In this document: positions 3,810 through 30,450 of the stretch, piece by piece
Layout of the letters: the number at the start of each line of letters is the position of its first letter
Position numbering within the stretch: the stretch's first letter is position 1
Virus record (IMG/VR): IMGVR_UViG_3300028197_000068
Location: 1-35,512 of that record
Length of the DNA stretch: 35,512 nt
Direction: 5' to 3' (one strand)
From: a virus
The notes under the pieces: generated by a model
Databases searched by the model: none
Seen by the model: the letters and a program-made list of their open reading frames with translations, nothing else
Told to the model about the DNA's origin: nothing
Program-made: the position numbers and the translations under genes

Positions 3810-4592
3810 CTATTTGGTTGATGTGTTAAGTCTACTACGAACAAAATCTACTAAAGCTGCTCTGGTGGAATCTTCTTCAGATTCAACTTCGCTGCCAATG
3901 CCAAGATTAACTTCTTCTTCTACCTCAACTTCGTCGAGAATTTCGGCGTCAGCAATTACTTCTGATGCTTTATCTTTCTCTTCTTTTTTCTTCTTTTCTT
4001 CTAAAGCTTCTTTAAGAGCTGGAGGCATTCCTGCATCAGCATCGTCTTCAGCTTTTTTCTCTTCTTTTTTCTCTTTCTTAGACATACCAGCTAATAAAGC
4101 AGTCATGTCTTCAAAAGACTCGTCGCTCAAATGTTCAAATTTATCTGCGGTAGACCCAACTGTTTCGTTATCAAGACCAGCTTCTACTAAAGATGCCATT
4201 CTCTTGGCTTTCTTTTCTTTCTTCATCATCTCGTCTTCTTTGGCCTTGTAGCCTGCAACAACTTCGTTAGCAGCTTCGATATCAGTAACATGCTTAGCAA
4301 TTACTTCTTCTCTAGATGCTAGTTCGGTTTCTTTTGCTGCGATGGCTTCATCTTTTTGTACGATCTCTTCATCTCTTTGTGCGATGACGCTATCTTTTTC
4401 CGAAATGGTTGTATTCAATTCGGCAATAATAGTCTCTTTGGCTTCAACAGCTGCTGCTAGTTCTGCCTTAGCGCCAGCCTCTGTCTGAGCAAGCTGTGTC
4501 TTCAGCTCAACGTTAGCTGATTGTAGCTCCTCATGGCTAAATTTAGCCTCTAACTTAGTTTTGATGTCTGCGATATCATTTTCTAAACTCAT
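3810..4592 (-). CDS. Internal in-frame scaffold product of the protease-scaffold gene (260 aa)
   Basis: Met283 of the protease-scaffold protein (ATG at 4592-4590) is preceded by CGGAGATAAATACT, a strong ribosome site with about nine bases spacing, exactly at the junction between the protease part and the coiled coil. Translation from here would give the scaffold alone, as with lambda Nu3 inside gene C and herpesvirus UL26.5 inside UL26. The site and frame are seen; production of the protein is inferred. Confidence 0.7.
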   Translation of the reverse strand: MSLENDIADIKTKLEAKFSHEELQSANVELKTQLAQTEAGAKAELAAAVEAKETIIAELNTTISEKDSVIAQRDEEIVQKDEAIAAKETELASREEVIAKHVTDIEAANEVVAGYKAKEDEMMKKEKKAKRMASLVEAGLDNETVGSTADKFEHLSDESFEDMTALLAGMSKKEKKEEKKAEDDADAGMPPALKEALEEKKKKEEKDKASEVIADAEILDEVEVEEEVNLGIGSEVESEEDSTRAALVDFVRSRLNTSTK

Positions 4593-7697: not shown

Positions 7698-9731
7698 CTA
7701 TTCTCTGTATATTCCTGTATAAATATCTTCATTGGCTCCTTCTGTGAACCATTCGGGTCCTCGATACATCTGTCCATCTTTCCCTGTTATGTCTCTTAAA
7801 TTGCCTCCTATGACATCATAATCAACTGGTTTTAGTCCTTTGTGGAATTTTCTAGCTATAGCGTTAGCGATAATTAATGCGCTATATCTATCTTTTCTTA
7901 GTCTTCCTCTTTTTCCTTGCTGTAATTTGATTTCTGGAGTATCCCATCTATCTCTAGCGTTGGGTCCTTGACTAGTCTGAGACATAACAATTGTCGTTAA
8001 TTCATTTTTAAGTTCTTCTATTTCCATAATACATTCACTTAAATTGTCGTGTAAATTATCAAGCTCTGAATCTAATATATCTTGACCTTCTTGATCCAAA
8101 GCTAATCCCAAAGTAAGATTATCAAATCTTGGAAACAACAAAAGTTTATCTTCTAGGTCTTTTCTTAATCCATGATTTGCAAAAGCTGTCCATTCTGCTC
8201 TAGCAAATTGCACCAATTCTAAAATATGTAAACCTGGTTGAGCGTCTGTATCTTTACTTTTGCTTTTATTATAATCGATAATAGGCCATATCAAATTTTC
8301 TCCATCTTGTAATTTAGAAGGATCATGTAAACCCTCTTCTATCGCTACTCCACCTCCCTGAGCATCCATACCTATAGTGGCTGGAGGAAAGGTCTTCATC
8401 AAATCACGAATTTTACGAACACAAAATCCATAAAAATCATGTTCTTCGACCAAACCTCTTTTTTGTCTAGCTTTAAAATTACCCCTATTTGTAGTCCACG
8501 AATATACTACTCGATTATGGTCTGGATGTATTTCTAAAATAATTATACTAAAATTGTCTTTTTCACTAGCTGGATCAATTCCATACACATATTGATTATT
8601 TGTATTTCCTTTTACCACTGCATCAAAAACAATTTCTCTTTCACCTATCTTTATAGGATTTTTTTCTGAAACAACACAGCCTTCTATCAAACTTCTCTTA
8701 AAGAACCCTTCGCTGTCTGTAACAAAACAAGCTGCGTATTCCATATTATAAATCGCTGTGTGAATAGTGGCTTTTGCCCTAGCTACTTGTTTATCATCCA
8801 TAAAACCTTTAGGTATAAGTTCATAGGGAATTCTTATAATGCTATAATCTTGCCAATTAAAATTATCAGGAACTTCTCCTTGAAATAATTCTTGCAACTT
8901 TTCTATATCTCCCTTACTTTCCACGATACCCTTATAGCGATTCCAATATTTTGAGAAGTGCTTAAAGCCATAGTCTGCTGTTCCAGAAATAATCGCTTGA
9001 TTACCCATTTTAGTATGCAAGGTTTCTAAATCTTCATTCCATAAGCCTGCCTCTTTCAAAGCTTTCTTTTTAGCTTGCTCCTTTACATTTTCTATAGGCG
9101 TAGCACTAACAGCCGCGAAGCCAGCAACAACAGTTTCATAAATATCAGGACTGATAGAAGCAAATTCGTCAGCAATAATAATATGAGCTCTTAAGCCTCT
9201 AATTTTAGAACCATCACCCATAGGTATTGCTATAGCCCAGCTGTCGCCTAGTCTCATTGTACATCTATCGACATCTCTTCTTGGTCCGTCATCATTACCA
9301 GAAAATATACTTCTAAGTACTGGACTAGTTCTCCATATGGTTTCCATATACTCAAAAATAATTTTACTCTGTCTAAAAGCTGCACCTACGATAACAATCT
9401 TAGTACCTGGATAAAACATGCACCTTAACACAGAATATAGAGCCAAAAGAAAGGATTTACCCCAACCACGACTAGCTATATACATAGGGAACGGTCTTAA
9501 CGAAAATTCTTGGAGAATCATCATCTGTATTGGATGTAACTCAATATTGAATAACAATTTACAAGTAGAACCAACGTATTCAGGATCCCTCATTAATCTC
9601 ATCAGATGTAAATCAGGATTCTCTATTTCTTTTTCTGTTCGATGAATTAATGGATTGTTAGGTATCTGTAATTTTGTTAAATCCCCTAACCCTAACCACG
9701 CACCATCAAACTCTATATTGTTATTACTCAT
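7698..9731 (-). CDS. Terminase large subunit
   Basis: The 677-aa protein carries a Walker A motif SRGWGKS at residues 87-93 and a Walker B HIIIADEF at 183-190, the DNA-packaging ATPase core. The C-terminal nuclease half shows acidic clusters in GIDPASEKDNFSIIIL and GMDAQGGGVAIEEGL, with DRYSALIIANAIARK near the end, matching the RNase H-like terminase nuclease. It cuts concatemers and pumps DNA through the portal. The start overlaps the upstream gene by eight bases, implying translational coupling. Confidence 0.95.
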   Translation of the reverse strand: MSNNNIEFDGAWLGLGDLTKLQIPNNPLIHRTEKEIENPDLHLMRLMRDPEYVGSTCKLLFNIELHPIQMMILQEFSLRPFPMYIASRGWGKSFLLALYSVLRCMFYPGTKIVIVGAAFRQSKIIFEYMETIWRTSPVLRSIFSGNDDGPRRDVDRCTMRLGDSWAIAIPMGDGSKIRGLRAHIIIADEFASISPDIYETVVAGFAAVSATPIENVKEQAKKKALKEAGLWNEDLETLHTKMGNQAIISGTADYGFKHFSKYWNRYKGIVESKGDIEKLQELFQGEVPDNFNWQDYSIIRIPYELIPKGFMDDKQVARAKATIHTAIYNMEYAACFVTDSEGFFKRSLIEGCVVSEKNPIKIGEREIVFDAVVKGNTNNQYVYGIDPASEKDNFSIIILEIHPDHNRVVYSWTTNRGNFKARQKRGLVEEHDFYGFCVRKIRDLMKTFPPATIGMDAQGGGVAIEEGLHDPSKLQDGENLIWPIIDYNKSKSKDTDAQPGLHILELVQFARAEWTAFANHGLRKDLEDKLLLFPRFDNLTLGLALDQEGQDILDSELDNLHDNLSECIMEIEELKNELTTIVMSQTSQGPNARDRWDTPEIKLQQGKRGRLRKDRYSALIIANAIARKFHKGLKPVDYDVIGGNLRDITGKDGQMYRGPEWFTEGANEDIYTGIYRE

Positions 9732-10801: not shown

Positions 10802-11063
10802 TTTTTTCTTCTGTCGCTAATTTCAATAAAACAGCTTCATAATAACTTTCATTTCCAGTAATTATTTTATGATGAGTCCTACATAAAGTAATACCGTTAT
10901 TAACTTCATATCTTAACCCAGGAAAATTTGCCCAAGTTTTAATATGGTGAGCGTTCAAATATTTGCTGACTGTACACCCAGGCCATTGACACTTCCACTT
11001 GTCTCTAGCGTATACTTTTTGTCTCCATTGTTTATATATAGGATCGTCATAATTACGTTTCAT
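10782..11063 (-). CDS. HNH endonuclease (93 aa)
   Basis: A single HNH domain fills the protein: structural Cys pair in CQWPGC, catalytic LNAHHIKTWANFP, Asn in YEVNNGITLC, and the closing CRTHH. The size and position beside the terminase match HNH proteins that help terminase cut at cos sites in HK97-like phages. A homing endonuclease is an alternative, but no intron is evident. Overlaps both neighbours by 11 and 20 bases. Confidence 0.9.
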   Translation of the reverse strand: MKRNYDDPIYKQWRQKVYARDKWKCQWPGCTVSKYLNAHHIKTWANFPGLRYEVNNGITLCRTHHKIITGNESYYEAVLLKLATEEKNGKRRT

Positions 11064-12057
11064 GTATTATATTACTCTTATTTATGTCATGATCAACCAT
11101 ATCCGCCACTAATTCTTCAAAATTAATTTTAGGCTTCCATCCTAAAATCTTATAAGCTTTTTGATTACTACCTAAAAGATAGTCAACTTCTGCTGGTCTA
11201 TACAGAGAAGGATCAATTTGAATATGATTTTTATAGTCAAGATCTACTCTTTCAAAAGCAGCCTTAACAAAATCTAATACGCTACAAGTCCTTCCTGTGC
11301 AAATAACAAAATCATCAGGACTATCTAATTGTAACATCATATACATAGCTTCTACATAGTCCTTAGCATGACCCCAATCTCTATAAGCATTTAAATTACC
11401 TAGTTTTAATGGATCTTTTATTTTATTATTAATAAGATTAGATATATATTTAGTAATTTTTCTAGTAACAAAATTCTCACCACGACGAGGACTTTCATGA
11501 TTAAATAGGATTCCACTACAACAAAATATTCCATATGCATCTCTATAAATTTGAATCATTCTGTGACTAGCTAATTTAGAAACACCATATGGACTTTGTG
11601 GTAATAGTTCTGTATTTTCATCTTGATACTTATTTCCAGTAATTTTATCTACCGTATGATTTCTACCAAACATTTCGCTGGTACTAGCTTGATAAAATTT
11701 TGTATGCATCGATGTGCTTCTTATAGCTTCTAATATATTAACGACTCCAACTGTATTAATCTCAATAGAAGTAGTAGGCTGCTTAAAACTAGTTTGCACA
11801 TGACTCTGAGCCGCAAGATTATAAAACTCGTCTGGCTGATATTTATCAATTAATCTAAAAACATTTGCTGGATCAGTCAAATCAAATTCTTCCAAACTAA
11901 AACTACTATGATCTAAAATCTCAGAAACTCTAGAAAAATCTCCAGTACTCGTTCTTCTATGTAGTCCAACAACCCTATATCCTTTTTCTAACAAAAGCTC
12001 TGCTAGATAAGATCCGTCTTGTCCTGTTACTCCTGTAATTAATGCTAATTTATTCAT
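11053..12057 (-). CDS. gmd: GDP-mannose 4,6-dehydratase
   Basis: A short-chain dehydrogenase of the extended class: NAD(P)-binding GVTGQDGSYLAE at residues 9-20, catalytic STSEMFG at 125-131, and YGVSKLA with Tyr157/Lys161. Length 334 aa, close to bacterial Gmd. It converts GDP-mannose to GDP-4-keto-6-deoxymannose, the precursor of GDP-L-fucose and other 6-deoxy sugars. It is embedded in the packaging operon between probable small terminase and HNH genes, overlapping both, an unusual site for a sugar gene. The partner epimerase-reductase is encoded 2 kb away on the other strand. Confidence 0.95.
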   Translation of the reverse strand: MNKLALITGVTGQDGSYLAELLLEKGYRVVGLHRRTSTGDFSRVSEILDHSSFSLEEFDLTDPANVFRLIDKYQPDEFYNLAAQSHVQTSFKQPTTSIEINTVGVVNILEAIRSTSMHTKFYQASTSEMFGRNHTVDKITGNKYQDENTELLPQSPYGVSKLASHRMIQIYRDAYGIFCCSGILFNHESPRRGENFVTRKITKYISNLINNKIKDPLKLGNLNAYRDWGHAKDYVEAMYMMLQLDSPDDFVICTGRTCSVLDFVKAAFERVDLDYKNHIQIDPSLYRPAEVDYLLGSNQKAYKILGWKPKINFEELVADMVDHDINKSNIIHET

Positions 12058-14010: not shown

Positions 14011-14937
14011 ATGAAATGCCTAGTAACAGGATCTAATGGATTCTTAGGAACTTTTGTAACAAAGGAGCTTGAAAAAAAATACAAGAAAGATATAGAAATA
14101 TTTTATCCTAGAAGCTATGAATATGATTTAATTGACCGTAATATGGTAGATGACATGTATGCTGAGTATAAGCCTAACGTTGTTATTCATTTAGCAGCAG
14201 AAGTGGGTGGAATTGGGGCTAATATGGAAAATCCAGGTCGTTTTTTCTATGCTAATGCTAGTATGGGTATTAATATGGTAGAAGGGGCTAGATTGAATAA
14301 TGTGGATAAGTTTATATTTGTAAGTACTGTATGTGGATATCCTAAATATGCTAACGCTCCTTTTCTAGAAGATGAGATGTGGGATGGATATCCTGAAGAA
14401 ACAAATGCTCCTTATGGAATAGCCAAAAAGGGAGTGATGGTAATGTTAGATGGATATTATAGACAGTACGGTTTAAAAAGTGCTACGTTAGTACCTACCA
14501 ATTTATATGGTCCTAACGATCATTTTGATCCTAAGATTAGTCATGTTATACCAGCTCTTATTAAGAAGTTTGTAGACGCAAAAGATAATAGGGAAAAAGT
14601 GGTCAATATATGGGGAGATGGAACAGCTACTAGGGAATTCTTGTATGTAGAAGATGCTGCTAGGGGAATAGTAGCAGCAGTAGATAAGGTGAATGTTCCT
14701 ACTCCTATTAATCTTGGTAGTGGTCATGAAATTAGTATTAATGATCTAGCTATAAAGATTAAAAATAATGTTGGATTTAAAGGAGATATACAATACGAAA
14801 CGAATAAACCAAACGGACAGCCTAGAAGGTTTTTAGACACTCAAAGAGCAAAAGATTTGCTTGAATGGAAAGCTAAAGTTTCGTTCGATGATGGCATTAG
14901 AAATACTGTCGAATGGTTTATGAAAAACAGGATTTAA
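14011..14937 (+). CDS. fcl: GDP-L-fucose synthase (epimerase-reductase)
   Basis: Nucleotide-binding GSNGFLGTF near residue 7, catalytic Ser in STVCGYP, and Tyr/Lys in YGIAKKG. LVPTNLYGPNDHFDP and HVIPALIKKF are characteristic of the GMER/WcaG family. Length 308 aa, typical. It turns GDP-4-keto-6-deoxymannose into GDP-L-fucose, directly following the Gmd step. AGGAG precedes the ATG, and the gene is packed against glmS (three-base gap). Confidence 0.93.
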   Translation: MKCLVTGSNGFLGTFVTKELEKKYKKDIEIFYPRSYEYDLIDRNMVDDMYAEYKPNVVIHLAAEVGGIGANMENPGRFFYANASMGINMVEGARLNNVDKFIFVSTVCGYPKYANAPFLEDEMWDGYPEETNAPYGIAKKGVMVMLDGYYRQYGLKSATLVPTNLYGPNDHFDPKISHVIPALIKKFVDAKDNREKVVNIWGDGTATREFLYVEDAARGIVAAVDKVNVPTPINLGSGHEISINDLAIKIKNNVGFKGDIQYETNKPNGQPRRFLDTQRAKDLLEWKAKVSFDDGIRNTVEWFMKNRI

Positions 14938-14940
14938 TAT

Positions 14941-16755
14941 ATGTGTGGAATAATAGCTTATAAAGGCAATAAAGATGCTATAGATATACTTAGTGATGGA
15001 TTATATAAATTAGAATATCGTGGATATGATAGTGTGGGGATATCTATTATAAATAACGATGGTAAACTAGAGACATATAAACAAGCTGGAAGTATAGAGG
15101 ATTTACTTGTCCCAGAAGGTAAAGTAAGTTCTATGGGTATAGGTCATACTAGATGGGCTACCCATGGAAAGGCTTGTGCCAGAAATTCTCATCCTCATGT
15201 TACAGAAGATAATACTCTTTCAATTGTACATAATGGTATTATAGAAAATTATGCAGAATTAAGGGAGGGATTAGCTGATAAATATAAAATAGTGTCTGAT
15301 ACGGACTCAGAGATTATGTTATATCTTATATATGATATAATGAAAGATGTGGGGAATTTGTTTGATAGTGTGAAGATTGCTGTAGAAAAAGTAATAGGTG
15401 CATATGCTATTGTCTTGATAAATACTAATGAACCAGATGTTATGGTGTGTGCTAAAAGAGGAAGCAGTCTTTGTATAGGTGTTAATGATAATGAATATTT
15501 TATTGCTAGTGATATCAATGCTTTTAGTAAGTATACTAATAATATCATTAATATAAAAGATGGATTTATTACAAAGATATCTGATCAAATAGAACATTAT
15601 GATTCTAATATAAAAGATGTAACACAATGTAATATAGAAAAAGTATATAATAATACATATAATATTTCTAAGAAAACTTGGTCGAGTTTTATGTTGAAAG
15701 AAATTTTTGAGCAGCCTTCTGCTGTGACAGATTGTCTTAAAGGAAGGGTTGATGGTTACAAGATTAAATTGGGTGGATTTGATAATACGGAAAATTTGTT
15801 TAAACGTGCTAGGAGAATTACTATATTAGGATGTGGTTCTAGCTGGCATGCGGCTTTATTAGGTAAATACTATATAGAGGAAATAGCAAATGTTCCAATC
15901 AATGTTGAATATGCTAGTGAGTTTAGATATAGAGACCCTGTCATAGACAACGGAGATATTATAATAGGTATATCGCAATCTGGTGAAACAGCAGACACTC
16001 TAGCTGCTTTGAAACTAGCTAAAGAAAAAGGTGCGATAACTGTTGGAATATGTAATACTGTTAATTCTGAATTAAGCAAGGTTACTGAGTTTGGTATGTA
16101 TACTCGATGTGGAATAGAAGTTGGAGTAGCTAGCACTAAGGCATTTATGAATCAATGTCTATGTCTATTAATGGTTTCACTATGGTTAGATCAAAATTTA
16201 AATCATAGTTCCAGATCTTTTCGTAAAGACATTATAGACAATATTAAGAATCTACCAGAGATTATTGCTCAGGCAGTTTGGAAAACACCTAACATTAGGG
16301 AGATTGCTGATAAATTTTCTTCTGCTAAGAATTTTTTATTTTTAGGCAGAAGATATAACTTTCCTATAGCTTTAGAGGGTGCTTTAAAACTAAAAGAAAT
16401 ATCTTATATTCATGCCGAGGGTTATCCGGCTGCGGAAATGAAACACGGGCCTATAGCATTGATAGATAAAAATATGCCTGTTGTGATTCTTGCTAATACG
16501 AAACAACAATACAATAAGATTCTTGCTAATAAAATGGAAATAGAGGCTAGGGATGGCCAAGTGATAGCAATTGTAAATAATATTAATAAGATGATGGTGG
16601 GGGCTTATGATATTCAGGTACCTGAGTGTCATGATATTTTAAGTCCTTTTGTCTCTATTATACCATTACAACTACTTGCTTTGTATGTTGCAGAAAATAG
16701 AGGTTGTAATGTTGATCGTCCTAGGAATTTAGCTAAAAGTGTAACGGTGGAATAA
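14941..16755 (+). CDS. glmS: Glutamine-fructose-6-phosphate aminotransferase (isomerizing)
   Basis: Full-length, 604 aa (E. coli 609). N-terminal glutaminase domain with the nucleophile Cys2 (MCGIIAYKGN), RGYDSVGI, HTRWATHG and SIVHNGIIENY. Two SIS sugar isomerase domains follow with GCGSSWHAALLG, GISQSGETADT and GVASTKAF, and the C-terminus LAKSVTVE is the diagnostic end of the family. It makes glucosamine-6-P from fructose-6-P and glutamine, the entry step to UDP-GlcNAc. All active-site landmarks are intact, so the phage enzyme is probably functional. Confidence 0.97.
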   Translation: MCGIIAYKGNKDAIDILSDGLYKLEYRGYDSVGISIINNDGKLETYKQAGSIEDLLVPEGKVSSMGIGHTRWATHGKACARNSHPHVTEDNTLSIVHNGIIENYAELREGLADKYKIVSDTDSEIMLYLIYDIMKDVGNLFDSVKIAVEKVIGAYAIVLINTNEPDVMVCAKRGSSLCIGVNDNEYFIASDINAFSKYTNNIINIKDGFITKISDQIEHYDSNIKDVTQCNIEKVYNNTYNISKKTWSSFMLKEIFEQPSAVTDCLKGRVDGYKIKLGGFDNTENLFKRARRITILGCGSSWHAALLGKYYIEEIANVPINVEYASEFRYRDPVIDNGDIIIGISQSGETADTLAALKLAKEKGAITVGICNTVNSELSKVTEFGMYTRCGIEVGVASTKAFMNQCLCLLMVSLWLDQNLNHSSRSFRKDIIDNIKNLPEIIAQAVWKTPNIREIADKFSSAKNFLFLGRRYNFPIALEGALKLKEISYIHAEGYPAAEMKHGPIALIDKNMPVVILANTKQQYNKILANKMEIEARDGQVIAIVNNINKMMVGAYDIQVPECHDILSPFVSIIPLQLLALYVAENRGCNVDRPRNLAKSVTVE

Positions 16756-20291: not shown

Positions 20292-20352
20292 GTTGTTGAT
20301 AGATAAGGACTTAGGCACAAGAGATGCCCGCCCCTAGTAGGATTGAGGGGTG
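20289..20352 (+). repeat. Composite hairpin element, copy 4
   Basis: TAAGTTGTT/AAGGACTTA (20289-20313), GGCA/TGCC mini-hairpin, CCCCT/AGGGG stem (20331-20350). The first TAA is the stop codon of the small membrane protein. Confidence 0.8.
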
Positions 20353-20375
20353 TCTTATCTAATCCGTTAGGCTAA

Positions 20376-20403
20376 GGTTTATGTAGACAGTCAGCAATAA
20401 ACC
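20376..20403 (+). other. Hairpin with GTCAGC loop
   Basis: GGTTTAT/ATAAACC stem with the loop GTAGACAGTCAGCA; a member of the GTCAGCGA element family. Lies just before the 20426 promoter. Confidence 0.6.
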
Positions 20404-22417: not shown

Positions 22418-22428
22418 AGCATTTGTAT

Positions 22429-22490
22429 CACCTAATCGTATCTGATTGGATGAGTATGGATACAGTCAGCGAAAACTAATATTGTAGGTG
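22429..22490 (+). ncRNA. GTCAGCGA structured element in a 5' leader
   Basis: Outer stem CACCTA/TAGGTG closes a 62-base unit with inner AATC/GATT and GTAT/ATAC hairpins and the conserved GTCAGCGA at 22465. It lies between the -10 and a small open reading frame, as a leader regulator would. Confidence 0.55.
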
Positions 22491-22695: not shown

Positions 22696-22722
22696 TTGAA
22701 GACACCCACGGAGAACACAACC

Positions 22723-23436
22723 ATGAAAACAGCGAACGGCAACGACAAACTAGGTAAAGAAAACTGTATTGTAGTATCTCGACCAGTGGGGGATACCTGT
22801 CCACCTACTTGTGATTTTCTAGGCAATGGCTGTTATGCCGAACAACTAGAAAAAATTTATCCCGGTGTTCGCCCTGCCGGTATGCAAAATCTCATCACGG
22901 AGAAAAACAAAATCCGTGCTATGCTAATCAATGCAGAGAAGAAAAGTAAAGACCTGCGATGGCATGAAAGAGGCGATTTCTTCAAAGATGGTAGTATGCT
23001 TGATATAGAGTATGTAGACAATATATTGTGGGCGTGTCGTAGTATATTGGCTGAAGGTGGCAAACTTCCTAAAATGTGGGCCTACACTCATATCTACGAT
23101 CCTAAGCTGTCCAGAATACTCGGAAAGTATATCACAATGTACGCAAGTGTACATAACCAAGATGATGTAGTCAAGGCAAAAGCTGCGGGATTCAAACTAT
23201 TTGCATGGTGTGACAGCGACCAGAAGATAGCCTCTAAACGCCCAAGAAGTAAAAAGAAGGCTGACCAATGGCGTAGCGAACTACCTAAGTTGGTTGTGTT
23301 AGGTGGTGATAAATATGTTACTTGTCCAGAGATTCGTCGTGGTCGTGGCGTTGTCACTTGCACAAAATCTAAGGACAGCGTAAACTGTCAACTGTGTGTC
23401 CAAGGTTTTGCAAACGTCCTTTTCCCATCTCATTAG
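22723..23436 (+). CDS. DUF7227-like Cys-motif phage protein (237 aa)
   Basis: The ATG at 22723 follows CGGAGAACACAACC. The N-terminus has NDKLGKENCIVVSRPVGDTC, then PPTCDFLGNGCYAE, a Cys-x4-Cys-x7-Cys cluster, and a second Cys set near the C-terminus (VTCTKSKDSVNCQLC). The middle reads like an alpha/beta barrel (LPKMWAYTHIYD, ITMYASVHNQDDV, FKLFAWCDSD). Cys clusters suggest a metal or Fe-S site; the family is common in phages and its role is unknown. Among the largest genes of the accessory block, with its own promoter. Confidence 0.8.
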   Translation: MKTANGNDKLGKENCIVVSRPVGDTCPPTCDFLGNGCYAEQLEKIYPGVRPAGMQNLITEKNKIRAMLINAEKKSKDLRWHERGDFFKDGSMLDIEYVDNILWACRSILAEGGKLPKMWAYTHIYDPKLSRILGKYITMYASVHNQDDVVKAKAAGFKLFAWCDSDQKIASKRPRSKKKADQWRSELPKLVVLGGDKYVTCPEIRRGRGVVTCTKSKDSVNCQLCVQGFANVLFPSH

Positions 23437-23446
23437 AGGTGTATCT

Positions 23447-23617
23447 ATGTTTGAAAATGTTCCAGACGATCACATAAAAAATTTTTGGATATGTCAAGAA
23501 TGTAGTACAGAAGTTGAGATAATGCCAGATTGGTACGAACAGAATGGAACTCCTGTCTGTGGCGGATGCGATAGGGATATGGAATATTCACACTCGGAGG
23601 TATGGATAGATGGCTAA
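23447..23617 (+). CDS. Small zinc-ribbon protein (56 aa)
   Basis: I chose the ATG at 23447 ten bases after the previous stop (RBS GAGGTG). Two CxxC pairs, WICQECSTEVE and TPVCGGCDRDMEY, form a zinc ribbon; this size class is common in phages. The end overlaps the next gene by eight bases. Confidence 0.8.
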   Translation: MFENVPDDHIKNFWICQECSTEVEIMPDWYEQNGTPVCGGCDRDMEYSHSEVWIDG

Positions 23618-23837
23618 ATATTATATTTCAACGGGAACACTTCAATTAATTTACTCAACGAGTCAAGGAGCTTATGACGCTTGCAGAACTGTGATCCATG
23701 AAATTAATGAATATGATGAGCTAGATGAGTTTATGTATTGCGACGAGAGAGGTATGAAAAACTATCTTACAGCGACACCGAAAACTATGGTATTTATTAC
23801 GAAAGACATATTAGACAAAGAAGACTATCCGACGTAA
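23610..23837 (+). CDS. Conserved small phage protein (75 aa)
   Basis: KYYISTGTLQLIYSTSQGAY, then ACRTVIHEINEYDELDEFMY and CDERGM form a recurring phage pattern of unknown function. RBS CGGAGG. The TAA stop is part of the next inverted repeat. Confidence 0.75.
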   Translation: MAKYYISTGTLQLIYSTSQGAYDACRTVIHEINEYDELDEFMYCDERGMKNYLTATPKTMVFITKDILDKEDYPT

Positions 23838-23920: not shown

Positions 23921-23948
23921 TTGACAATGACGATATATATAGTATACT
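23921..23948 (+). promoter_or_regulatory. CGATA-type promoter of the structured RNA
   Basis: TTGACA at 23921, TATACT at 23943, 16-base spacer with GACGATA; the expected start is near 23955. No ribosome site or gene follows for 350 bases. Confidence 0.8.
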
Positions 23949-23954
23949 TACAAT

Positions 23955-24190
23955 ACATGGCACGGAACAGTTGCCCAAGTATTCAAGCCCAAGATTGTGA
24001 TACGGTAAGGCTTTACTGTGAAGCATTCGGAGATACTTGTGGGGTGCAAGTCCCTAGTGCGATGACCGAACATTAAGACGGATACGCAATCCAGTCTGGA
24101 GGGACTGAAAGGCGTAAAGGTGTGACACAGAATAACGTTATACGATAGTGTCACAGGAAACTGCAAACCCCGATACGGGCCAAGCACCTA
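23955..24190 (+). ncRNA. Candidate structured non-coding RNA R1
   Basis: Paired segments read by eye: GGCA/TGCC (23959/23972), AGT+AAGCC/GGCTT+ACT (23978-24017), CTTG/CAAG (24036/24181), GGGG/CCCC (24041/24168), GCA/TGC (24046/24162), GTCCC/GGGAC (24050/24101), TGCG/CGCA with CCG/CGG inside (24058-24088), and TGTGACAC/GTGTCACA (24121/24148). This makes a closed multibranched fold. It does not match tRNA, tmRNA, RNase P or intron signatures that I know. Confidence 0.65.
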
Positions 24191-24205
24191 AGTCCTATTA
24201 TGTCT

Positions 24206-24250
24206 CACCCTATCCTATAAGATTGGTAAAGATGGTCGTAGTCAGCGAAA
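24206..24250 (+). other. GTCAGCGA element (3' of R1)
   Basis: CCTATC/GATTGG hairpin, then AAAGATGGTCGTA and GTCAGCGA at 24241. Same order as the copy at 29519. Ends 12 bases before the next -35. Confidence 0.6.
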
Positions 24251-24261
24251 TGCTAAAGTTC

Positions 24262-24290
24262 TTGACAATAGTATGCCGATAATGTATACT
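24262..24290 (+). promoter_or_regulatory. CGATA-type promoter
   Basis: GCTAAAG box, then TTGACA at 24262, TATACT at 24285, spacer 17 containing GCCGATAA. Confidence 0.8.
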
Positions 24291-24308
24291 AGGGAGAAGG
24301 AGATAATT

Positions 24309-24707
24309 ATGAAATACAGAGTAAGATTCCACCTACAACGCGGTCAGCACTATATGCACTGGCAGATTAGAGCATGGGACGGTACAGTCAAGTATCTTAA
24401 TCCACAGAAATATCAGATCGAGATGAGACGTTGCACCCTAGTCAATAAGAAAAACGCTGCTGTCAAGGTACATAATGCAGGCAAGAAGGATGTTTGTGGT
24501 TGGGTAGAATGTGAGAATTTTGATATACTAGAAAAAGATAGTTTACCTATTGACAACCTAGAAAAATTGTTGTATAATCCAATAGTCGAGCCTAGTTGGA
24601 GGCGAGAAGACGATGATGGTGATTTTGATTGGGACAACTATCACTTTGATATGTTGGTGACAGATGGTAATAAGGTACATATTGCAGAGGAGAGATGTTA
24701 TGCCTAA
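24309..24707 (+). CDS. Hypothetical protein (132 aa)
   Basis: The ATG at 24309 follows GGAGAAGGAGATAATT; the in-frame upstream ATG lies within the promoter. N-terminal beta-rich region (KYRVRFHLQRGQHYMHWQIR, then NPQKYQIEMRRCTLVNK), acidic C-terminus (REDDDGDFDWDNYHF). Similar proteins of unknown role occur in phages. Overlaps the next start by eight bases. Confidence 0.75.
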   Translation: MKYRVRFHLQRGQHYMHWQIRAWDGTVKYLNPQKYQIEMRRCTLVNKKNAAVKVHNAGKKDVCGWVECENFDILEKDSLPIDNLEKLLYNPIVEPSWRREDDDGDFDWDNYHFDMLVTDGNKVHIAEERCYA

Positions 24708-25957: not shown

Positions 25958-26029
25958 GGCTCCGTAGTTCAACGGATAGAACAGTGGTCTTCTAAACCTC
26001 AAATGTGAGTTCGATTCTCGCCGGAGCTA
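25958..26029 (+). tRNA. tRNA-Arg (anticodon UCU)
   Basis: Acceptor GGCTCCG/CGGAGCT, D-arm GTTC/GAAC, anticodon loop CTTCTAA giving UCU (reads AGA/AGG), T loop TTCGATT. One U-U mismatch in the anticodon stem. The 3' CCA is not encoded. Confidence 0.9.
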
Positions 26030-26031
26030 CT

Positions 26032-26199
26032 ATGGATAAAGATAAGAAAATTGGGACGATTCTAAGTTATCTTAATCACAAGATGAGTGTGATGAATCAA
26101 ACCGAGACAGATAAGGTAAAGAAAATCGTTGAGGATGACGATATTACTCTTAAGGAGGTGGTAGAATGGTATATAGACTATGTTTGGCGTTCATCTTAA
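26032..26199 (+). CDS. Hypothetical protein (55 aa)
   Basis: The ATG is two bases after the tRNA-Arg 3' end, with the discriminator-side sequence as leader (CCGGAGCT serves as a possible ribosome site). Sequence MDKDKKIGTILSYLNHKMSV, then VKKIVEDDDITLKEVVEWYI, helical. Overlaps the next gene by 34 bases. Not recognised. Confidence 0.6.
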   Translation: MDKDKKIGTILSYLNHKMSVMNQTETDKVKKIVEDDDITLKEVVEWYIDYVWRSS

Positions 26200-29342: not shown

Positions 29343-29575
29343 GGTGTGTAGTCTAGTAGTCGGCATCTCGATATATAAAAATAATTGTATTATAATGATT
29401 GTCTTAGCATAACTAACCTGCTAGGTGGTCTTGGTGATAGTCAGCGAGATTTGCGGGTCTTTGAATTATGCAGTAAGGAATGAAATAGTATCTGTGAAAA
29501 ATAATAATAGGTTTGTAATACCTAATCTAATAAGATTGGTCAAGTTGGTCGTAGTCAGCGAGATTTGGTACCATG
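29343..29575 (+). ncRNA. Candidate transcript with two GTCAGCGA elements
   Basis: From the 29308 promoter the RNA has no ribosome-site-plus-gene. It contains CCTGC/GCGGG closing a unit at 29417-29457 and TACC/GGTA closing a unit at 29519-29570 with inner CCTAATC/GATTGG, each carrying GTCAGCGAGATTTG. It runs into the 3' end of the minus-strand methyltransferase gene. Confidence 0.5.
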
Positions 29576-30274: not shown

Positions 30275-30413
30275 GTAGGAATATTATAAGGATATATAGT
30301 TTATTACCTAGTAGTTATATATTACTCCCGCCCTCTGCATAATTAATAATCATATTTCAAGATTTGGCAATATCAAAAAATTTTAAAGAAACTGTCTTAC
30401 CATAACTATTTGG

Positions 30414-30450
30414 GTTGAGTCTAATTATAAGTAGTCAGCGAAAAAAGCAG
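30414..30450 (+). other. GTCAGCGA element
   Basis: GTAGTCAGCGAAAAAAGC with a less clear surrounding stem; conserved core at 30434. Confidence 0.5.

Follow-up and report, generated by a model that had tools for sequence, protein, structure and literature searches.

The window analysed here, the whole 35,512-base record IMGVR_UViG_3300028197_000068 of an uncultured phage read on one strand, carries a terminase, a portal-like protein, four tRNA genes and many small ORFs. No DNA match to its first 24,000 bases was found in phage records, and the terminase shares only ~25% identity with terminases of isolated phages. Translations read by eye gave an unusual phage cargo: genes resembling a GDP-mannose dehydratase (11053–12057), an NAD-dependent epimerase (14011–14937) and GlmS (14941–16755). 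Between a small ORF (23610–23837) and a further ORF (24273–24707) lies the stretch 23955–24190, for which a first-pass annotation had proposed about 235 gene-free bases holding a new structured RNA behind its own strong CGATA promoter. The absence of a gene was borne out: there is no sense-strand gene over the RNA (2–6 stops per sense frame in 238 nt), sense coding is not conserved among homologues, and a 79-aa antisense ORF was likewise rejected as coding, not being kept in homologues.

The promoter was recovered as described. It is one of 7 plus-strand promoters in the window that follow the form TTGACn..CGATA..TAnnnT; 100 order-1 Markov randomisations contained 0.01 such promoters on average, so that they can be taken as a real class. 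The end of the −10 box lies 5–7 nt ahead of the first base of helix P1 in nine homologues, so that, on promoter geometry, the RNA would start at or adjoining the first base pair and the 5′ end of the transcript would be buried in a helix. Coordinates of these and the other features are collected in Table 1.

Table 1. Positions in the window of the RNA, its helices and neighbouring elements, with the evidence or detail for each.
Feature	Positions	Strand	Evidence or detail
RNA promoter TTGACA-16-TATACT	23921–23948	+	CGATA within spacer; also conserved in homologues
tRNA-like 5′ domain	23956–24064	+	Four-way cloverleaf, pseudoknotted arm instead of anticodon arm; covariation, cross-detection
P1 (acceptor-like), 5′ strand	23956–23963	+	Pairs with 24057–24064, one G-G mismatch; covariation, RNAalifold
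D-like hairpin	23964–23975	+	Covariation; A-U/G-C exchange in group 2 too
P2, 5′ strand	23976–23983	+	Pairs with 24032–24039; covariation, RNAalifold
Pseudoknot strand AAGCC	23985–23989	+	Partner GGCUU, 24009–24013 (P4 loop); covariation
P3, 5′ strand	23993–23997	+	Pairs with 24024–24028, one U-U mismatch; covariation
P4, 5′ strand	24002–24006	+	Pairs with 24015–24019; covariation, RNAalifold
T-arm	24040–24056	+	5-bp stem, 7-nt loop UGCAAGU (24045–24051); covariation, RNAalifold
P1, 3′ strand	24057–24064	+	Covariation, RNAalifold
Conserved tail NCC[A/G]..ACAWU	24065–24074	+	Alignment A1
3′ module A (exchangeable)	~24080–24190	+	Homologue comparison
Module A hairpin 24123–24128/24148–24153	24123–24153	+	Palindromic loop AUAACGUUAU at 24132–24141
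Repeated 3′ element ending in UAGUCAGCGA	24194–24245	+	Ahead of next promoter; at least six copies in window
Separate promoter of next gene	24262–24290	+	Between RNA and following ORF

Relatives of the RNA were sought in 64 related viral loci, fetched by means of the phrog_1392-like window gene at 22696–23436. Local blastn and nhmmer searches found homologues in L008, L002/L006, L027, L004/L005, L028/L062 and L024/L025, and a T-arm-plus-tail pattern, with later scans, added L103, L117, L119, L131, L139 and L224. In viral contigs this pattern matched mostly ordinary tRNAs or chance stretches, and true members were filtered by structure; the exact motif GGAAACTGCAAACCCC gave chance matches only, a search by the downstream protein returned two distant loci of no use, and DNA searches of isolated phages revealed no relatives of the RNA, one of them giving short promoter matches only. 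Two groups were aligned by sequence alone: group 1, comprising the window, L008, L103, L028 and L025 (alignment A3), and its sister group 2, comprising the seven sequences of L002, L004, L117, L119, L139, L027 and L131 (alignment A2).

Given no structure, RNAalifold returned for both groups the same nested P1, D-like hairpin, P2, P3, P4 and T-arm, with differences limited to a few extra or missing pairs. In group 2, P1 has 7 bp and a single bulge, the stem of the D-like hairpin has 4 bp, the T-stem has 5 bp and a 7-nt loop, and the four-way junction contains zero unpaired bases. A pseudoknot between the strand directly following P2 and the loop of P4 was added to this fold; it shows three compensatory pairs in group 1 and two in group 2. 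P3 covaries weakly in group 1 and at 5/5 pairs in group 2. Overall, 97.4% of cells in A2 are paired and 18/39 pairs have changed on both sides, giving a covariation score of 0.551 compared with 0.227 ± 0.026 for 500 shuffles, a control that ignores relatedness, and with ≤0.084 when partners were slid by 1–3 columns, a control that favours structures derived from the same sequences. Both-side changes were seen in 10/38 pairs of A3 (score 0.337, shuffled 0.178 ± 0.025), both alignments being small (5 and 7 sequences). By folding energy the stretch does not stand out (MFE z −1.57; 17/200 shuffles as good), and it is because of covariation in homologues, not folding energy, that the structure is taken as real.

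A covariance model, R1, built from group 2 only with the pseudoknot left out, and hence without the window, matched the window at 38.0 bits (E 1.8e-8). It also matched the other members of group 1, namely L103 (44.8 bits), L008 (42.6), L028 (27.1) and L025 (15.4 bits, E 0.13), and found one copy per record in 12/29 related records. Covariation and cross-detection show the 5′ domain to be a conserved four-way cloverleaf, in which a T arm, an acceptor-like arm and a D-like arm are joined by a long pseudoknotted one.

The family extends further. A third group (L011, L029, L033, L046, L052, L058, L064 and L188) was found with a custom structural descriptor (alignment A5) to have P1, P2, pseudoknot and T-arm in common, although in L046 the descriptor picked another strand and the usual AUAACC/GGUUAU pair was seen by eye; for L019, L020, L021, L042 and L056 the likeness was judged solely by eye. 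Pseudoknot strands in this wider family (AUAACC:GGUUAU, UAGCCC:GGGCUA, AUAAGCC:GGCUUAU, AAGGC:GCCUU and GUAGC:GCUAC) are unlike those of groups 1 and 2. When partners were swapped within a hand table of ten, 5/90 combinations paired, and these swapped-partner counts are the informative part of a table whose strands had been picked for complementarity.

The first-pass annotation was therefore right about the promoter and about a new structured RNA, which is conserved, covarying and absent from Rfam, and only partly right about the fold. Its closing CTTG/GGGG/GCA helix with a multibranch interior would pair ~24036–24049 with ~24162–24183, destroying the P2 3′ strand and the T-arm. Because the P2 and T-arm pairing covaries, and because relatives lacking the 3′ module keep the T-arm, this helix is unsupported and probably wrong, and two domains, one after the other, should take the place of the whole-molecule multibranch fold.

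The order of arms in the 5′ domain (acceptor, D-like, long arm, T-arm, acceptor) is that of a tRNA. Acceptor, D and T arms are all present, and the T-arm, with its 5 bp and 7-nt loop, is in direct contact with the 3′ strand of the acceptor, as in tRNA. There is no anticodon arm with a 7-nt loop; P2, P3, P4 and the pseudoknot stand in its place. The D-like loop lacks a tRNA-type GG pair. After P1 comes a tail, a conserved sequence motif reading NCC[A/G]..ACAWU in most of alignment A1; the window's group has CCG, not CCA, which argues against simple charging, and CCA is encoded in 4/274 tRNA genes of these phages. Standard tRNA models (Rfam, ARAGORN) failed to recognise the RNA, which falls below every tRNA threshold, and ARAGORN at a lowered threshold made weak, mutually discordant calls in 3/7 members. 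Among sub-threshold R1 matches in related loci, 21/28 overlapped ARAGORN tRNA genes (≥40 bases, same strand), where tRNA genes cover 2.9% of the strands searched. In excluding tRNA and tmRNA, the first-pass annotation was right as regards family membership, but it overlooked the tRNA-like cloverleaf formed by the 5′ half.

No Rfam family matches the RNA at gathering thresholds, and a permissive scan of the short region (E up to 10) gave only a chance fungal snoRNA, snR107, which scored 20.5 bits where its gathering score is 44 and lay mostly over the AT-rich promoter. The same permissive scan showed no match to the GOLLD or ROOL models. Resemblances to RNase P and to group I and II introns, considered by eye, found no support in Rfam. 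Nor did Rfam models match for the cobalamin riboswitch or the twister-sister ribozyme, to which a likeness had also been noticed by eye and both of which hold a GGUGCAAGUCC-like hairpin.

The 3′ part of the molecule is exchangeable. Module A follows the tail in the window, L002, L027 and L004, and in a shorter form in L131; L008, L103, L117, L119 and L139 have module B instead, and L028 and L025 keep the T-arm with neither module. Elsewhere in the clade, phages carry module A as a stand-alone unit preceded by a promoter of its own. For the mixed alignment of module A (A4), RNAalifold predicted 6 pairs only, because fused and stand-alone forms align poorly, and the fold of this module therefore draws mainly on single-sequence folding and on its loop. 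In the window that loop holds the 10-nt palindrome AUAACGUUAU; in L002, L004 and L027 the corresponding sequence is UGACGUUA, palindromic only with G-U pairs. Natural module A variants include UGAUAUCA, UGACGUCA and UAACGUUA. An unbiased viral scan that kept the surroundings constant and let seven loop positions vary yielded 33 stretches, in which all 28 distinct contexts contained a perfect 8-nt palindrome of one of three sequences (TGATATCA in 25, TGACGTCA in 2, TAACGTTA in 1). Random substitutions in the commonest loop kept a palindrome in 4.8% (double) or 1.0% (quadruple) of cases, the observed switching amounting to only about two independent double changes. Since such an 8-mer cannot fully pair inside one loop, the natural interpretation is that two molecules pair with each other, and the preservation of the palindrome through sequence change suggests a kissing-loop homodimer. 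The same palindrome-switching argument has been applied to OLE and GOLLD (PMC12286853). No module A was found in bacterial and archaeal genomes. The first hairpin loop of module B contains GGCAGCC (GGUAACC in L103), a palindrome save for the A-A in its middle, with changes to both of its sides; this could be a second self-pairing loop.

Structured elements are frequent in the surroundings. The repeat that follows the RNA, ~50 nt long and roughly of the form CCTAATC..GATTGG....TAGTCAGCGA, is intergenic, often directly ahead of a promoter, and recurs in the window at ~20340–20400, 22420–22475, 29390–29445, 29505–29560 and 30385–30440; it also follows tRNAs and RNA modules in relatives, and is possibly a terminator or processing site. 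Pistol ribozymes (51–55 bits) lie near tRNA genes in L030 (5050–5112), L023 (2869–2931) and L009 (5430–5492). More conserved, structured-looking elements were seen in L025 (after 7400), L042 (~8070–8200) and L058 (~4180–4330), and downstream of module B in L103, L117, L119 and L139, with the motifs CCAG[C/T]AACCG..GTGGGCGGTTTC..CGTAAAAG..CGCTGG and AACTGGTGACCTC..CCAG. These elements had no Rfam match at gathering thresholds, or in permissive scans of L058 and L103, and the related phages thus hold several further structured elements outside the recognition of Rfam. A possible processing site, AATACAA or a near variant of it, repeatedly separates one structured RNA element from the next in L058, L052, L056, L042, L202 and L203. 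When L028 (7207–7329) is compared with the window (25958–26199), the tRNA-like domain of L028 stands directly ahead of a small ORF, and the related ORF of the window follows tRNA-Arg; tRNA and tRNA-like RNA thus fill the same slot, the ORF similarity being judged by eye.

Comparison of homologues shows that 23956–24190 specifies a conserved, selected, two-domain RNA, as predicted from sequence, with a dedicated promoter-like site. As to what it does, on balance we lean towards a phage RNA acting in trans, in which a non-decoding tRNA mimic or decoy is joined to a palindrome that makes the homodimer the working unit. The strong promoter would yield a transcript that begins with the first pair of P1 and whose buried 5′ end would stabilise the RNA; host or phage factors that bind tRNA would be offered the acceptor/T-arm half, a mimic or decoy incapable of decoding; and the palindromic loop would pair two copies. 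Expression is predicted, and action in trans is inferred because a separate promoter precedes the next gene and because neighbours differ between relatives, and the target of the mimicry would be factors that read the acceptor/T half. The first-pass annotation had proposed a trans-acting or scaffolding RNA expressed early; such a role may be right, the palindromic loop hinting at self-association, and early timing is conjectural. More tentatively, these molecules could represent a new class of phage RNA, in which a non-decoding tRNA mimic, its anticodon arm turned into a pseudoknotted one, is fused to interchangeable dimerisation modules. Together these would make up a device of RNA alone, able to capture the machinery that handles tRNAs or to protect the phage against host defences directed at tRNA.

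The rival that survives best, although we think it rather unlikely, is a structural, self-assembling RNA with a role like that of GOLLD or ROOL, forming an RNA-only complex during infection, with the tRNA-like domain as a mere stable folding unit. Switching of a palindromic loop, the criterion used for OLE and GOLLD, would fit this, as would several exchangeable modules and a location in phages of a clade rich in tRNA genes; yet the RNA is far smaller than GOLLD or ROOL, matches neither in Rfam, offers a single candidate kissing loop, is without a 3′ module in L028 and L025, and gives no sign of higher oligomers.

Less probable again is a cis-acting leader exerting riboswitch-like control over the downstream gene. 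Such an arrangement is suggested by L028, where the domain directly precedes a ribosome-binding site and small ORF with no second promoter, but the RNA and the next gene have a promoter between them in the window, L008, L002 and L027, downstream neighbours vary among relatives, and no expression platform was seen. A tag-less, tmRNA-like ribosome-rescue RNA would, like tmRNA, unite a tRNA-like domain and a pseudoknot in one molecule; we give it very little credence, as Rfam and ARAGORN report no tmRNA, CCA is not conserved, and P2, P3 and P4 close the arm, leaving no tag reading frame or room for one. Last, a functionless, decayed tRNA gene, for which cloverleaf order, T-arm and the many tRNA genes of these phages might speak, is scarcely credible: there is a dedicated promoter, the RNA is retained in distant relatives, and every helix, as well as a pseudoknot foreign to tRNAs, shows compensatory changes, which imply selection.

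The RNA at 23955–24190 is thus a real and structurally well-supported tRNA-like RNA that is not in Rfam, and as a putative non-decoding tRNA mimic it may be set beside several known systems. To our knowledge, tRNA-like RNAs of DNA phages other than tmRNA and tRNA genes are little described. With canonical tRNA (RF00005) it shares the acceptor-like helix, D-like hairpin, T-arm (5 bp, 7-nt loop), their order and the four-way junction, but it has a pseudoknotted P2/P3/P4 arm, no anticodon arm and no constant CCA. In tmRNA, a larger RNA, a tRNA-like domain occurs together with a pseudoknot; the phage RNA joins the same two elements, but has no tag ORF, holds its pseudoknot inside an arm and carries its second domain after the acceptor. 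Mimicry of tRNA outside decoding is known from YrlA Y RNAs and from plant-virus tRNA-like structures. The former are marked by a Ro-binding stem and a Ro60 relative near by, and the phage RNA has no Rfam match to them; the latter, unlike the phage RNA, sit at genome 3′ ends and have their pseudoknot in the acceptor. GOLLD and ROOL are phage-encoded RNAs of several hundred nt that lie near tRNA genes and form nanocages, their intermolecular loop pairing backed by palindrome switching (PMC12286853). Phage encoding, proximity to tRNA genes and palindrome switching are all shared by the present RNA, which differs in its size (~235 nt) and, within the tests made, has neither sequence nor secondary structure in common with them. 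What sets it apart is a covariation-backed cloverleaf in which decoding has been lost and a pseudoknot gained, and such small RNAs (~110–235 nt) with exchangeable 3′ modules offer a test bed for the mimicry of tRNA and the homodimerisation of RNA during infection by phages.
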